This document shows, piece after piece, positions 7,295 to 34,321 of a DNA stretch of 34,671 bases. The DNA lies in assembly GCA_021793215.1 (NCBI GenBank), contig JAJYTE010000030.1:1-34671 (forward strand), given 5' to 3'. A program made the position numbers and the translations under genes. Each line of letters starts with the position of its first letter. Positions within the stretch are counted from its first letter, which is position 1. The notes beneath the pieces are model-generated. The model was given only the letters and a program-made list of their open reading frames with translations. It searched no databases and was not told the DNA's origin. This stretch comes from Bacillota bacterium (GTDB lineage: Bacteria; Bacillota; Sulfobacillia; JAJZYS01; JAJYTV01).

Positions 7295-7915
7295 ATGTTC
7301 GGTCTTTCGCAGTCCGTGCTCGGCGTCGCCTTCCTGGCGGTGCTGCTTCCGATCCTCGCCGTACTCGCCATCCCTGCGATCATCATCGCCGCGATCTACT
7401 TCCACCACCGCGAGCGCATGGCGTACTTCTCGCGCCCACCCTATCCACCGGGCGCAGACCCGTACGCCCCCCCGCCCGACAGCGAGGCGCCGCCGCCGGA
7501 GCCCTACCGCCCACCGTACTCCTACGCCTACAGAGAGCCCGGCTACTCGCGCCACCATCCCGCGCTCTACCACCCGATCGCCCGGATCGGCACCCTGATC
7601 GGGGTCGGACTCGGCATCACGCTCGGATTCCTCACGCTGGGACTCGGTCCATTGCTGCTGGCGGGACTGATCCCGCTCTTCGTCGGGCTGATCCGCCTCG
7701 GCGAATTGTACCTCGGACCAGGGGCCCCTCCGCCCCCCGACAGCGACCTCTCCGTCTGGCTGCACCGCAGCCTTTGGACCGGAGGCATCGGGCTCGCGCT
7801 CCTGCTCGGTCTCCTGACGCTCGGGCCGACGCCCCTCTTGCTCGTCGGCACGGTGCCGCTCGGATACGCCCTTGGACTCGTGCTCGCGTGGGCGCTCGCA
7901 AGGCACGCGACGTGA
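7295..7915 (+). CDS. Proline-rich multi-pass membrane protein, function unknown
   Basis: A 206-residue protein not assigned to a known family. It has a membrane segment at about 7-36, a basic FHHRERMAYF stretch, a proline/tyrosine-rich cytoplasmic or surface linker at 45-90, then hydrophobic segments at about 97-140 and 158-202. The two later halves share a GLxxxLGFLTLGLGPLLL / GLALLLGLLTLGPTPLLL pattern and look like an internal repeat. ATG 7295 has AGGAGG 8 bases upstream, overlapping the end of the preceding gene, so the two form an operon divergent from the ECF sigma. Confidence 0.65.
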   Translation: MFGLSQSVLGVAFLAVLLPILAVLAIPAIIIAAIYFHHRERMAYFSRPPYPPGADPYAPPPDSEAPPPEPYRPPYSYAYREPGYSRHHPALYHPIARIGTLIGVGLGITLGFLTLGLGPLLLAGLIPLFVGLIRLGELYLGPGAPPPPDSDLSVWLHRSLWTGGIGLALLLGLLTLGPTPLLLVGTVPLGYALGLVLAWALARHAT

Positions 7916-8014
7916 GCGAAGGACCGGCCGGGGGCGCTACACCCACTCCTTGCCGCCGGGCGGCGCCTCGGCACAGCGGAGCTCGGCTTCGCAAGAACAC
8001 GTCGCGCGATCAAA

Positions 8015-8045
8015 GAGGCCGGCACCCCCGAGGGGTGCCGGCCTC
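8015..8045. terminator. Hairpin terminator between convergent genes
   Basis: A 14-bp perfect stem (GAGGCCGGCACCCC and complement) with a 3-base loop lies between convergent genes ending at 7915 and 8061. No long T tract follows on either strand. It can serve both directions. Confidence 0.7.
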
Positions 8046-8060
8046 CCTGTCGTCGACCCG

Positions 8061-8708
8061 CTAGTTGCTGATCTGGATCGATCCCGTCATCCAGCCTGCC
8101 GTCGCCATCGTGCCGCCCCATCCGGCGCTGCCGGTGCCGCACGGCTGGTAGCACTGCCAGGTGTAGGTTCCCGCCTTGGCGGGCGTCTTGAAGGTTGCCA
8201 CCACGACCGCGGGCGAACTGGCGCTTGCCGCTGCGGGCAACGGGATGTTGAGGTTCAGGCCCGGCACCGTGAACGTGTGCGCGATCACGCCGTCCGCCTT
8301 GAAGCTGGTCTCCTGCTGGCCGTTCACGGTCTCGGTGTTGCCGACCGTGCCCGTGACCTTGGCGTAGGGAGCCGGGACCTGTCCGCCGCCGTCGTCGTAG
8401 TTCTTGATCGTCACCGTGACGAGCGTGTTCGCGGGAAGCGTCAGCGTCGCGGGGAACGGGTTCTTGCCATCCTGCGAGAAGAACGGCCAAGTCGAGTGCT
8501 GCGCGTTGCCGCCGTTCACGACTTCCCAGCTGAGGTTGACAGTCGCGGGCGCCGTCGTCGTCGAAGTCGACGTCGTCGTCGACGGTGCGGCTGCGCTGGC
8601 GTTGCCGGCGGCCTGCTGCTGTCCGCAGCCGGCGGCCGCGAGTCCGATCAGTGCGAATACGGCCGCAGCCGAAGCGATGCGTGAGAATGTACCAACGTTT
8701 CTCGTCAT
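8061..8708 (-). CDS. Cupredoxin-like copper lipoprotein
   Basis: A 215-residue exported lipoprotein: signal peptide with lipobox LAAAGC (Cys28), then a Thr/Ser-rich linker (43-56) and one beta-sandwich domain. Candidate copper ligands are His144 in IAHTF, Cys186 and Cys190 in WQCYQPCG, and Met201 or Met207. The CxxxCG spacing recalls the CuA loop of cytochrome oxidase subunit II, but the following histidine is missing, so a mononuclear site is more likely. It could be a sulfocyanin-like electron carrier or a copper-storing protein. ATG 8708 has GGGGGAAG upstream. It stands alone, ending at the shared terminator. Confidence 0.7.
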   Translation of the reverse strand: MTRNVGTFSRIASAAAVFALIGLAAAGCGQQQAAGNASAAAPSTTTSTSTTTAPATVNLSWEVVNGGNAQHSTWPFFSQDGKNPFPATLTLPANTLVTVTIKNYDDGGGQVPAPYAKVTGTVGNTETVNGQQETSFKADGVIAHTFTVPGLNLNIPLPAAASASSPAVVVATFKTPAKAGTYTWQCYQPCGTGSAGWGGTMATAGWMTGSIQISN

Positions 8709-9054
8709 CTCTGCTTCCCCCTCGAAGCGAATCTCCTGGACGGCCACATTGTCTCAAGCACCGTCCGGTTCGCAGAGGGGCGATCGGCCCAAAATAGGAC
8801 CGTCGGTACGGGGTCTGCGCCACATGACCATATGTCCTGGGCCACGTCCGTTTGCTGACCCTAGGCGGTCCATTTGTCGCCTGCAGAGGGCGGGCGTCGC
8901 ATCACAAGACCAAGCGGGCTGCACGCGTGCAAGCGTCCGGCCCACTCTCTTCAGCCAATCACCGTGCGTCAAAGGGCCCGCACGGACAAGTTCATCGCGG
9001 CATATGCAACGGCGCTTCGTCGCCCTGCGCTACGCTCGCGTAGCATCTGCGCGG
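8709..9054. other. 346-base gap without a supported gene
   Basis: This stretch separates the cupredoxin gene from mazG. Open frames here show no family resemblance and no ribosome site. I see no convincing -10/-35 pair for the cupredoxin gene, only a small hairpin next to mazG (9029-9044). Confidence 0.5.
9029..9044 (-). terminator. Weak hairpin after mazG
   Basis: GCTACGC-TC-GCGTAGC forms a 6-7 bp stem 11 bases past the mazG stop. It is short and has no T tract, so it may not terminate alone. Confidence 0.3.
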
Positions 9055-9351
9055 CTAGTCGCTTCGTTCGCCGCGCGCCGTCTGCTTTCGCAGCACCGCC
9101 TGTGCTGCCGCGCCAAGGTCTGTGCCGAGCTGGTACGCCAGCAAGGCGAGTACGAAGAGCGCGTCGCCGATCTCGGCCGCTGCCGGCTCGGCATCCGGCG
9201 CCAGGCGCTTGCGCCCCGCCTGCGCGTTCACGTGGCGCGCGATCTCCCCGACCTCCTCCACGAGGCGCGTCACGTTCTCGGCCGGGGTCCAGTACCCGCC
9301 GTTTCCGTCCACCCATGCCTCCGCGGCTGCCTGGAACTGCCCGATTTCCAT
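9055..9351 (-). CDS. MazG-like nucleotide pyrophosphohydrolase
   Basis: A 98-residue single-domain member of the all-alpha NTP pyrophosphatase superfamily. The metal-binding acidic residues appear as RLVEEVGEIARHV (EExxE) and EIGDALFVLALLAYQ (ExxD), in the standard order. Such proteins hydrolyse non-canonical NTPs to NMP and PPi. ATG 9351 has GAGGAGG 6 bases upstream, which overlaps the mutY stop, so it is translationally linked to mutY. The pairing suggests a joint role against damaged nucleotides; the exact substrate cannot be read from sequence. Confidence 0.85.
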   Translation of the reverse strand: MEIGQFQAAAEAWVDGNGGYWTPAENVTRLVEEVGEIARHVNAQAGRKRLAPDAEPAAAEIGDALFVLALLAYQLGTDLGAAAQAVLRKQTARGERSD

Positions 9352-9362
9352 GTCCCGCCTCC

Positions 9363-10409
9363 TCAAAGTACTGCGCGAAATGCACGCGGCACCGCGACCT
9401 CGGCGAGGCGTTCGGGTGGAAGCCACTGCGCCGGCGCGGCGATCGCTTGTGGATGCTCGGCGACGAGGGCGACGACCTCACCCTCCCAAACTTGGTGCGT
9501 GAACACGTGCCGCATCGGCCAGCGCGTGCCCACCGCGCACCCAAAGACGCCCCAGCGGCCCACCTCGCGGAGCAGATCTCCCAGCGTTGGCGGCTCGTCC
9601 GCACCGAACACGTGCGGCGGCTCCCACAGTCCACCGAGCAGCCCGCGCGGCGGACGCGGCCGCCAGGCCTGTCCTTGCGGCGAAACGAGCTGGGCCGCCA
9701 GGATCCGCCGAACCGGCGCGACGGCCTTCCGGGAACGCACGCCGAAGGCTTCCGGCGCGCCGCTCGCGGCGGCTGCACAGTCCCCCTGCAGCGGACATGC
9801 GGCGCACGCCGGGCGCCGCGCCGTGCAGACGCCGGCACCGAGGTCCATCAGCGCGTCGCCGAGCACGCTCGGCGGCGCCTGGGTGAACCAGGCTTGCAGG
9901 AGACCCTGCGCCGCGCGGGCGGACGCGGCGTCGAGCGGGTCGCCGGGCACACCGCCGAAGCGCAGCGCAATGCGGCGCAGGTTGGCATCGAGCGGGGGAT
10001 CCGCGATACCGAACGCGAAGCTGCGCAGTGCGCTGGCCACGTACGGTCCCACCCCGGGCAGCCGCAGCAGCGCCGTGCGCTCTGAAGGTAGCGCGGCACC
10101 GCTCGCCACGAGTTCTTGGGCGAGGCGATGCAGGTTGCGCGCCCTGGCGTAGTAGCCGAGTCCTTCCCAGCTGCGCAGCACCTCTTGGAGCGGTGCCGCG
10201 GCCAAGCACCCGAGGTCCGGGAAGCGCTGCACAAACGCCTCGTAGCGCGGCGCGACCGTTTGCGCGCGCGTTTGCTGCAGCATCGCCTCGGCGATCAGCA
10301 CGCGGTAGGGCGTGCGCGGCTCCCGGCGCCAGGGAAGATCGCGCGCCTGTTCGCCGTACCATTGCAGCACGGCCGTTGCGGGCGAGGTCTCGTGCGCGCT
10401 CCGGACCAT
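9363..10409 (-). CDS. mutY: Adenine DNA glycosylase
   Basis: MutY removes adenine mispaired with 8-oxoguanine. In 348 residues it shows DLPWRREPRTPYRVLIAEAMLQQT with catalytic Glu41, the helix-hairpin-helix LPGVGPYVASAL at 118-129, catalytic Asp141 in LDANLRRI, and the iron-sulfur cysteines 195, 202, 205 and 211 (C-x6-C-x2-C-x5-C). A NUDIX-like C-terminal domain with GLLGGLWEPPH follows, where MutY reads 8-oxoG. I used ATG 10409, which places the conserved core close to the N-terminus; the frame is open to 10526. It is co-directional with mazG 11 bases downstream. Confidence 0.93.
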   Translation of the reverse strand: MVRSAHETSPATAVLQWYGEQARDLPWRREPRTPYRVLIAEAMLQQTRAQTVAPRYEAFVQRFPDLGCLAAAPLQEVLRSWEGLGYYARARNLHRLAQELVASGAALPSERTALLRLPGVGPYVASALRSFAFGIADPPLDANLRRIALRFGGVPGDPLDAASARAAQGLLQAWFTQAPPSVLGDALMDLGAGVCTARRPACAACPLQGDCAAAASGAPEAFGVRSRKAVAPVRRILAAQLVSPQGQAWRPRPPRGLLGGLWEPPHVFGADEPPTLGDLLREVGRWGVFGCAVGTRWPMRHVFTHQVWEGEVVALVAEHPQAIAAPAQWLPPERLAEVAVPRAFRAVL

Positions 10410-30614: not shown

Positions 30615-31691
30615 CTAGAATCCGCCTTCACCCCCGCCCGAGGATGATCCAGGGGTGACCTGCAGCGTGCCTTGCACGCCATCGCTGCCGAACAGCTGCA
30701 ACCGTCCGTTCAGCGTCAGCGGCGCAAGTCCAGCCGCGCTTACCGTCGCGTGGAACCGGTCGCCGCTCAGCGACGAGAGCGCACCCTGGTAGAGCCCGGG
30801 TTGGGCCGGCGTACCGAGGGCGACGCTGCTGCCCGTCAGCTGCACGCCGCCGCCGGAGATGGCTGTCCCTTGAAGGATCAGGGTCATGGAGCCGTACGGT
30901 CCGCCCTGGACGAGCAGGTTGAACTGCAGCGTGACATTTCCCTGGGCGTCCGGGCCCTGCTGCGTAACGGTTCCCTGGAACGTCGCGGAGTACGCGCTTG
31001 AGGTGCTGGCCACCACCTGAGCGGTGGCCACTCGACTGCCCGATCCCTTGCCGTTGTTCGCGATCTTGTTCCAGCCCGGACGGAGCGGCCCAGCGAGGGT
31101 GAACACGAGGCCGCCAACCGCCACGACCCCGGTGAGTGCCGCCCAGCCGGGAAACCGCCTGCTGCGCTCGCCGGGCGGCCGGAGCAGCCGCAGTATCGTG
31201 AGCCCGATGATCGCGGCAGAGCTCGCGCCGTAGATGTCGAGCGCCCAGGCCGTCCGCGTGTCGCTGCCGTCTCCCAGCCCGTGCAGCGTCGCGAGAATCC
31301 AGACGACGAACGTCAGGTAGTGCAGCCGGCGCCACCACGCGTAGCCGATCTTCGGCCGCAGCCAGCCGGTCGCGACGACAGCCAGTCCCACGTAGGCGGC
31401 GATGATGCCGAGCGCCATCCAGAGCGGCCGGTAGTGGCTCACTCCCGGGACGAGCACCTCAAACCAGGTGAACTTCGTGAACGGGTCGATCAGTACCGAG
31501 AGTCCGTGGATCGCCGTGAAGATGCCGGCGAGAAGCACGAGGTACTGGTGCAGCTGATCGTTCACCAGCCGTGGCCAGATGCGTCGAGACTGCCAGCGCT
31601 GGCTTAGGAGGAGGCCGAACACCGCCGCCAGCGTGACGAGGCCGTACGCGGTGAAGCCCGAGGCGCGCGCGACGATCCACTGCCACTCCAA
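30615..31691 (-). CDS. Ferric-reductase-like dihaem membrane protein with exported C-terminal domain
   Basis: A 358-residue protein. Residues 1-200 form about six membrane helices of the ferric reductase/YedZ type, with two histidine pairs on two helices, His48 and His62 (HQYLVLLAGIFTAIHG) and His124 and His137 (LHYLTFVVWILATLHG), fit for two b haems. No FAD- or NAD-binding domain follows. Instead there is a Ser/Gly-rich beta domain of about 130 residues (QGTVTQQG, VTLQFNLLVQG, LTLNGRLQLFG). TTG 31691 has AGGTGA 7 bases upstream. It follows apbE by 12 bases, so a flavin-linked electron path is likely. Confidence 0.82.
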   Translation of the reverse strand: MEWQWIVARASGFTAYGLVTLAAVFGLLLSQRWQSRRIWPRLVNDQLHQYLVLLAGIFTAIHGLSVLIDPFTKFTWFEVLVPGVSHYRPLWMALGIIAAYVGLAVVATGWLRPKIGYAWWRRLHYLTFVVWILATLHGLGDGSDTRTAWALDIYGASSAAIIGLTILRLLRPPGERSRRFPGWAALTGVVAVGGLVFTLAGPLRPGWNKIANNGKGSGSRVATAQVVASTSSAYSATFQGTVTQQGPDAQGNVTLQFNLLVQGGPYGSMTLILQGTAISGGGVQLTGSSVALGTPAQPGLYQGALSSLSGDRFHATVSAAGLAPLTLNGRLQLFGSDGVQGTLQVTPGSSSGGGEGGF

Positions 31692-31703
31692 CGCTGGCTC
31701 ACC

Positions 31704-32615
31704 TCACTCCTGCGGCCAGGGTAAGATCCGGATCGGGGACCCCGCTTCGGGGATCAGAAGGCCTGCGAGCCCACGTGAGAGCAGGAACTCGCCGCCCGCC
31801 TGCGAGCCCCGCAGGTAGGCGGTCGTGGCGGCCACATCGGCCTCCGCGCAGGTCGGGGCTACCACGGTCACCGTACTCAGTCCCGACGCCGCAGGAAAGC
31901 CGGTCGCCGGGTTCAGAAGGTGGTGCCTGGGCGCGCCGCCTTGCAGCCACCGTCGCCGTAGTGCACCCGAAGTCGCTACCCCGCCGCGCTGCAGCGGGAT
32001 CACCTCGCTGGGAAGGGAAGCGATCGCCACGGGCCACGCGTCGCTGCCGTCCGGCACGCCGCGTACTGCGAGGTCTCCACCGGCGTTGACGAGCGCTGGG
32101 GCGATGCCGGCCGCGACGAGCGCGTCGAGCGCGGCGTCGACCGCCATGCCCTTCGCGATGCCGCCGAGATCCACGCCACAGCCGACAGGCAGACGGATCG
32201 TCCGGCGCCCACGGTCGAGCGCCATGGCTCTCCACGCCCCGCCCGGCCCGATCGCCTCGGTGAGCGGCGCGAGTGGATCGCCCGCCTCGATCTCCTCGAA
32301 CGTGCGAACGTACCCGAGCCGTTCGATCTGGAGAAGGAGCGTAGGGTCGAACGTACCGTCAGTGACCGTCGCCCATCCGAGAGCCGCCTCGACCGCGCGG
32401 AACAAGAGGTCGCTCGCAGCGAAGGCGCGACCCGCGCTTCGGTTGAGCGCGGAGAGTTCGCTGCTCGGCCGGAAGCGGCTGAGCGCAGCGTCCCATGTCG
32501 CGAACAGCCGCTCCACGATCCCCGCCGCCTGCGCGATCTTCGCCGCGGGTGCATGCACTTCGACGGAGCAACCCATCGCGCGGAACGCGGAGGACGCGAG
32601 CGGACCCGAAGTCAC
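31704..32615 (-). CDS. apbE: FAD:protein FMN transferase, ApbE family
   Basis: ApbE attaches FMN from FAD to a threonine or serine of a target protein outside the membrane. The 303-residue protein has FRAMGCSVEVHAP, LSRFRPSSELSALN, TDGTFDPTLL, VDLGGIAKGMAVDAAL, PALVNAGGDLAVRG and HHLLNPATGFPA, all in family order. The N-terminus has no clear signal peptide, so the cell side is uncertain. GTG 32615 lies 2 bases after the stop of the preceding small gene and has only a weak ribosome site, suggesting coupling. Neither neighbour shows an obvious FMN-acceptor motif. Confidence 0.9.
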   Translation of the reverse strand: MTSGPLASSAFRAMGCSVEVHAPAAKIAQAAGIVERLFATWDAALSRFRPSSELSALNRSAGRAFAASDLLFRAVEAALGWATVTDGTFDPTLLLQIERLGYVRTFEEIEAGDPLAPLTEAIGPGGAWRAMALDRGRRTIRLPVGCGVDLGGIAKGMAVDAALDALVAAGIAPALVNAGGDLAVRGVPDGSDAWPVAIASLPSEVIPLQRGGVATSGALRRRWLQGGAPRHHLLNPATGFPAASGLSTVTVVAPTCAEADVAATTAYLRGSQAGGEFLLSRGLAGLLIPEAGSPIRILPWPQE

Positions 32616-32617
32616 GC

Positions 32618-32923
32618 CTACGAAACCGATGTCTGGGTGATCGGCTGCGAACTCGTGCCGCTGCCGAACCCGTACCCTTGACTGGGCGCCGCGGGCACGA
32701 AGCCTTGGTTGCCCTGCTGCTGGGATGTCGTAGCGGTCGAGCGGCTGGTCACGCCGGTCAGATGGTGCGCGGCCGCCTGCCACAGCACGATGAACGAGAT
32801 CGCGGCCGCGAAGAAAGCGCCCCGCTTGAATGTCCTCGCGCGCTGTTCCGCTTGCTCCTTTGTCATCGGTCTGGACTCGCGGCGACCGCTCGTGGGTGGG
32901 CGGCGCGCTGCCATGTCGTCCAC
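32618..32923 (-). CDS. Small membrane-anchored protein of the apbE operon
   Basis: A 101-residue protein of unknown function. A basic N-terminus (ARRPPTSGRRESRP, then TKEQAEQRARTFKRG) leads into one membrane helix (AFFAAAISFIVLWQAAAHHL) and a Ser/Thr/Gln/Gly-rich tail of about 45 residues that should lie outside. GTG 32923 has GGGGGAG 5 bases upstream. It is first in an operon with apbE and the ferric-reductase-like gene. The Thr/Ser-rich tail could be a modified or flexible segment, but it contains no clear SGA(S/T)xT flavinylation site. Confidence 0.65.
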   Translation of the reverse strand: MDDMAARRPPTSGRRESRPMTKEQAEQRARTFKRGAFFAAAISFIVLWQAAAHHLTGVTSRSTATTSQQQGNQGFVPAAPSQGYGFGSGTSSQPITQTSVS

Positions 32924-33472: not shown

Positions 33473-33581
33473 CTGCCCACTCCCTCTGCAAGGGGGCCGC
33501 GTCCACGCAGCGCGGGGAGCTAGGTCGGCCCCGTGTCAGCGTATGGCGCGAAGGAGAGTCCGCTCCTGAAGGACAACCCAC

Positions 33582-33607
33582 GGAACCAACCGGCGGTGCG
33601 CGGCGTG
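33582..33607 (+). promoter_or_regulatory. Candidate ECF-type promoter of the anchored sigma gene
   Basis: GGAAC (33582-33586), 17 bases and CGTG (33604-33607) match the common ECF promoter layout. They lie about 40 bases before ATG 33647, consistent with self-activation. Confidence 0.35.
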
Positions 33608-33646
33608 TTAAGGGGTGAATGCAGTCCGAAAGGCGGGAACCGTTCG

Positions 33647-34321
33647 ATGCGCGCCGCGCATGAGCATGAATTCGACCGTTTCTACGGGCAGCGCGAACCT
33701 CAGGTCATGCGATTTCTCATCGGCATGCTCGGCGACCCTAGCCTCGCGGCCGACGCTGCCTCCCGCACCTGGCTTCGCTACCTGCGCTACGCAGAGCGGC
33801 CGACGCCGCGGCTTGATGTCGCACTCTTGATGGCTGTTGCCCGCAACGCCGTGCGTGAGACCATCCGGTGCCATCCTGGTGGGCTGGACCACGGGCAGTG
33901 GCCAGGCGAATGGGATCCGGGCGACGCGATCGCGCTCGCGCTCTGCGTCACCCGACTGCCGACAGTGGAACGCGCCGTCGTGCTCATGCATTACGCCCTC
34001 GGGCTGCGGCGGGAGGAAACACTCCGTGCCCTCGGGCTCAGCGAAGCAGCGCTTCAAGCACACCTTGGGGCCGCCATCGGGCGGCTGTGCGCCGAGTGCA
34101 GCACGCCTGCGCGAAGGCAAGGACACGCTGAGGATCGTCTGGAACGGGCGCTGCGTGGACTCGGGCCCGCCTACGATCGACTGATCGAGGGAGGTCCTGC
34201 GCTCACCGCGCATCGCCCGTTCCTGCATCGCTTGGGCGGCCGCAGGCGACTTGGTCGCCGGCTGCTGCTGGCGACCGCGCTCGGCGCCGCCATAGCCTTC
34301 ACGATCCTCGCCGCCCGTTAG
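33647..34321 (+). CDS. ECF-like sigma factor with C-terminal membrane segment
   Basis: A 224-residue protein. Residues 5-80 resemble sigma region 2 (FYGQREPQVMRFLIGMLGD, AADAASRTWLRYLRY) and about 105-155 resemble region 4 (LPTVERAVVLMHYALGLRRE, then LGLSEAALQAHLGAAIGRL). A basic stretch (GGRRRLGRR) and a single hydrophobic helix (LLLATALGAAIAFTILAA) end the protein, so it may be held at the membrane. ATG 33647 is the first start that keeps only the family core; the frame is open to 33533. No anti-sigma gene is adjacent. It lies between a holin-like gene and a spore-protein gene. Confidence 0.75.
   Translation: MRAAHEHEFDRFYGQREPQVMRFLIGMLGDPSLAADAASRTWLRYLRYAERPTPRLDVALLMAVARNAVRETIRCHPGGLDHGQWPGEWDPGDAIALALCVTRLPTVERAVVLMHYALGLRREETLRALGLSEAALQAHLGAAIGRLCAECSTPARRQGHAEDRLERALRGLGPAYDRLIEGGPALTAHRPFLHRLGGRRRLGRRLLLATALGAAIAFTILAAR

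Follow-up and report, generated by a model that had tools for sequence, protein, structure and literature searches.

The closest described counterparts of the locus considered here are the MsrQ-like flavinylation systems, in which a dihaem PF01794 protein is encoded together with ApbE and a protein with an FMN-binding domain (Meheust et al. 2021, PMC8238504); the FMN-binding gene is typical of the cluster and lies outside its published operational definition. The acceptor motif of ApbE was defined in the same survey as [S/T]GA[S/T], and FMN attaches to its last residue (PMC12052999). Changes of A to V or of G to A in this motif leave about 50% flavinylation each, and a change of D to A has a minor effect (PMC12052999). 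The enzymes tested accept Ser less well than Thr. The DUF2271 and DUF3570 substrates, which fall outside the FMN_bind family and were traced from orphan apbE genes, were experimentally shown to carry an internal [S/T]GA[S/T] in folded domains (PMC8238504), and in the FMN_red substrates the motif lies on an unstructured C-terminal extension adjoining a folded flavin-binding site (PMC11334425). In the engineered flavin-tag (Tong et al. 2021, as related in PMC12052999) a short, foldless terminal peptide receives FMN on its last residue, and a 7-residue version performs best at the N or C terminus of a protein (PMC12052999). The 2021 survey, which excluded ApbEs lacking a signal peptide or lipidation site, found that about 4% of genomes (670) possess apbE yet no known substrate (PMC8238504).

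A three-gene apbE cassette with a dihaem reductase

In the window, the whole 34,671-nucleotide stretch of DNA analysed here, we found a minus-strand cassette (30615-32866) that encodes, in order, a one-helix small protein, an ApbE and a ferric-reductase-like dihaem protein. Open reading frames, Pfam matches and helix prediction bear out this arrangement, which had been proposed by an earlier sequence-only reading. As the identical gene order recurs throughout the family and beyond it, the cassette is not a chance assemblage. No further partner gene is fixed in the neighborhoods across the family. In five loci of the sister genus a conserved membrane protein of 110-130 residues is encoded just downstream of the reductase, and is absent in the window; on the other strand the window also encodes a SigE-type sigma-70-family factor (33533-34321, plus strand) with a hydrophobic C-terminal segment that might be a membrane helix.

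The ApbE (31704..32615; PF02424, E 3e-52) aligns with solved ApbEs over its HHLLNP and ADVAAT stretches, retaining the HH and D-x-x-x-T residues of the active and metal sites, and by domain and active-site residues it is a putative FAD:protein FMN transferase. The reductase of the MsrQ/NOX type (30615..31691, TTG start) matches PF01794 just over the cut-off (E 2e-6). It has six predicted helices and the two haem histidine pairs claimed earlier, H48/H62 and H124/H137 (31281..31550), all four of which are invariant in an alignment with 17 homologues. In pairing a PF01794 gene with apbE, and in the helix number and haem histidine pairs of its product, the locus corresponds to an MsrQ-like system. 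PF01794 was the sole domain found in the protein, with neither FAD-binding 8 nor NAD-binding 6, and unlike in the MsrQ-like systems a NAD-binding domain is absent. A sequence search revealed no relative of solved structure, and Foldseek alone gave nothing below 0.001; the membrane part matches the transmembrane cores of SpNOX and STEAP2 in fold (Z about 10-11), from both of which the window reductase differs in lacking a cytosolic FAD/NADPH domain.

The C-terminal region of the reductase (residues 231-349; 30645..31001) is modeled as a predicted extracytoplasmic eight-stranded beta domain with pLDDT of about 85-92. In the model it resembles barrels of the allene-oxide-cyclase/dirigent type (VIA-align Z 8-10.7; not significant by Foldseek alone), and the matches include pyocyanin demethylase (Z 9.4). 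The earlier suggestion that this domain stands in for a flavin domain was not borne out. As the alignment with 17 homologues shows no invariant Ser/Thr in it (a TGSS stretch is confined to close relatives), as its predicted fold resembles the barrels just named, and as it is missing from the shorter reductases that related cassettes encode, the domain is unlikely to be the FMN site, and we rejected it as such. That it might bind FMN, covalently or otherwise, draws on the likeness to ligand-binding barrels, pyocyanin demethylase among them; given the same absence of a fixed hydroxyl residue and of the domain itself in relatives, we regard this as highly improbable.

The C terminus of the small protein

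The small protein (82 residues, 32618..32866) is an open reading frame with a conserved start, and is predicted to comprise a single N-in signal-anchor helix (residues 3-34) and a Ser/Thr-rich tail that is disordered. The gene itself stands as originally called; its earlier start at about 32917 lies upstream of the favored 32866, and the start is uncertain. The protein yields zero matches to Pfam and NCBIfam, and neither it nor any of 37 homologues matches FMN_bind (PF04205). Its tail ends in PITQTSVS, which departs from the D-x-x-[S/T]-G-A-[S/T] of canonical ApbE substrates, and the earlier statement that both neighbors of the ApbE are devoid of [S/T]GA[S/T] is correct for the window proteins.

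The comparison of homologous cassettes that had been proposed as a check was made with 60 small proteins picked by position alone, as small hydrophobic reading frames directly upstream of apbE in Bacillota, Chloroflexota, Actinomycetota, Dormibacterota and Thermomicrobiota; most of the genomes are metagenome-assembled, and small reading frames and starts were assigned by our own rules. The last residue is Ser or Thr in 57/60 (background S+T about 13%, n=521), nearly always Ser, and position -3 is Ser/Thr in 97% as against 25% for the tails generally. The pattern [ST]xx[ST] lies at the exact C terminus in 56/60, while 2000 shuffles of the tails give 5.2 expected and a maximum of 14, so that a chance outcome of Ser/Thr-rich tails is rejected; it recurs in 25 of the 29 clusters at 40% identity. 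Five further small proteins with Ser ends, chosen through a filter on the end itself, do not enter the 57/60. A wider search recovered cassettes in Ktedonobacteria, Sphaerobacter, Actinomycetota, Dormibacterota and Paenibacillus. Since codons, stops and gene spacing differ among loci, the conservation acts on the protein; an artefact of gene overlap is rejected on the same ground, even though in six loci the Val codon and the apbE start share nucleotides.

In all loci read, small proteins of the window type end in [S/T]-x-V-S, or in one case in STLS. In seven of the 60 the end is exactly [ST]GA[ST], and homologues accompanied by ApbEs of the window's clade end in S-G-A-T, S-G-A-S, S-G-G-S or S-A-V-S; therefore the known motif occupies the same C-terminal position in these relatives. 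In five related small proteins the ends are charged (RRS or RHS), several of them with a strongly acidic stretch.

ApbE relationships and the possible place of flavinylation

We placed the cassette ApbEs in trees built by quick searches without bootstraps. The ApbEs of tail-type cassettes cluster with moderate support under midpoint rooting (SH-aLRT 89; inner node 94), apart from those partnered with internal-TGAS, FMN_bind or classical substrates. The ApbEs of the five charged-tail loci fall outside the tail-type node in the midpoint-rooted drawing; in a smaller tree all 26 rows group together with support of 95. ApbE clades separate by acceptor type, with 12 label changes against 39 in shuffles. 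Four of the seven loci with an exact [ST]GA[ST] end were placed in the tree, all within the window's clade, where the ApbE beside an SAVS end is sister (97) to three beside SGA[ST] ends; this juxtaposition is a direct example of apparent motif drift.

Typical ApbEs carry an export signal or a lipid anchor, and cytosolic ApbEs are also known. The window ApbE has no N-terminal hydrophobic segment and hence none of the export signal of the typical forms. A hydrophobic N terminus is found in 0/55 cassette ApbEs as against 25/30 classical ones. Export signals are likewise absent from ApbEs adjoining exported FMN_bind proteins at six loci of Sulfobacillus-like genomes. The charge pattern places the tail of the small protein outside in 52/60 cassettes, which counts against the proposed pairing when set beside the ApbEs without export signals. 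Either the tail would be flavinylated before it is exported, or one of the two predictions, of ApbE location and of tail topology, is wrong; the missing signal suggests cytosolic flavinylation ahead of export.

A candidate C-terminal flavin carrier

Given that no known acceptor domain was found in the genome and that the terminal Ser/Thr is conserved, the candidate FMN site is the C terminus of the small protein (T-S-V-S, 32621..32632, minus strand), whose last residue is most likely the missing acceptor. The window genome is 97.7% complete and encodes two ApbEs, without any PF04205 FMN_bind protein, the typical FMN-binding member of MsrQ-like clusters; DUF2271 and NqrB/RnfD, which were considered as hidden substrates, were rejected, being absent from this genome and the 17 other cassette genomes searched. 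Across the class, ApbE is present in 100/154 genomes and FMN_bind in 68/154. Eight genomes have a single, cassette-borne ApbE and no FMN_bind, which favors the small protein as acceptor. We place at roughly 70% the probability that the cassette is an electron-transfer unit in which ApbE attaches FMN to Ser82. The core of the earlier proposal, an unrecognised FMN site within an electron-transfer unit, is well supported, whereas the role that it gave to the beta domain is not.

In this proposal ApbE would transfer FMN from FAD to the Ser82 hydroxyl, T-S-V-S being a drifted version of [S/T]-G-A-[S/T]; the helix would anchor the flavin carrier in the membrane, the unfolded tail would give FMN reach to the dihaem reductase, and through the latter electrons would cross the membrane. 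The sequence basis consists of gene linkage, the retained residues of the active site and of haem binding, and a C-terminal Ser/Thr that is conserved and coincides in position with the canonical motifs of homologues; FMN attachment, the outward-facing tail and the direction of electron flow are what we infer. Counting against the proposal, T-S-V-S departs simultaneously from several positions of the motif that was tested and ends in the weaker acceptor Ser, the charged RRS/RHS tails stray further still, three of the 60 small proteins have no terminal Ser/Thr, and the six overlapping apbE starts, the moderate clade support and the midpoint rooting also weigh on that side.

A canonical substrate elsewhere had been named as the outcome that would overturn the earlier reading, and candidates of this kind are partly in evidence: a second cassette of the window genome (G000:C31, L039, reversed-locus 7378-9722) encodes another ferric-reductase-like protein, the second ApbE and a pair of small, coiled-coil-like membrane proteins that carry TTGAS, and it and its relatives have small proteins with TTGAS or TVTGAS, i.e. 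[S/T]GA[S/T], near or at the C terminus. That the window ApbE serves these or some other protein, leaving its own small partner flavin-free, is nevertheless unlikely, for the TGAS proteins adjoin an ApbE that is their own and belongs to another clade, the eight genomes noted above contain a window-type ApbE only, and the small partner keeps its C-terminal motif from phylum to phylum. FMN on a different Ser/Thr of the small protein, such as the Thr of a juxtamembrane GVT, seems quite unlikely: H-x-x-G-V-T is conserved within the window-type subgroup, but a GVT/GTT-like motif occurs in just 31/60 proteins as against the 57 with a terminal Ser/Thr, and homologues have a canonical SGA[ST] at the C terminus itself. 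The charged ends, unlike the known flavinylation motif, would suit a terminal residue that acts as a docking or processing signal or bears a modification other than FMN; with SGAT and SGAS ends beside same-clade ApbEs fitting flavinylation directly, we hold this to be very unlikely.

Under the preferred reading, with FMN on Ser82, the cassette is inferred to be an MsrQ-like unit whose carrier, in place of a folded FMN domain, would be a flavin tag occurring naturally at a C terminus, so that it shares the dihaem PF01794 protein and apbE with the described systems and differs in the absence of an FMN-binding domain protein, its putative acceptor being a disordered tail. Foldlessness and a terminal FMN would be common to it and the engineered tag as related in PMC12052999, from which it would be set apart by being natural, membrane-anchored and relaxed in motif to [S/T]-x-x-S. 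Like the DUF2271 and DUF3570 substrates the small protein lies outside FMN_bind and was reached from an orphan apbE gene, but its candidate motif is terminal and outside any folded domain. As in the FMN_red substrates the candidate site lies on an unstructured C-terminal stretch; unlike them it has no predicted fold. In the open-access literature, to which our search was confined, we found no description of C-terminal flavin acceptors of this kind. More tentatively, and at somewhat less than even odds, such proteins may constitute a phylum-spanning class of fold-free ApbE substrates with one helix and with FMN on the last residue of a terminal [S/T]-x-x-[S/T] motif, a dedicated ApbE clade flavinylating them in the cytosol ahead of export. 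The cassette offers a specific, testable answer to part of the orphan-apbE gap, and a carrier with a terminal Ser would escape the usual motif searches. If the reading holds, flavin electron carriers are possible without any fold, the ApbE motif is wider than assumed, the site of flavinylation in such bacteria needs rethinking, and the cassettes are a source of new ApbE/tag pairs with differing specificities. As a separate observation, the small protein of one locus (L155:2527-2898) combines an SAVS end with TSGAS just after the helix, a possible second flavin site.
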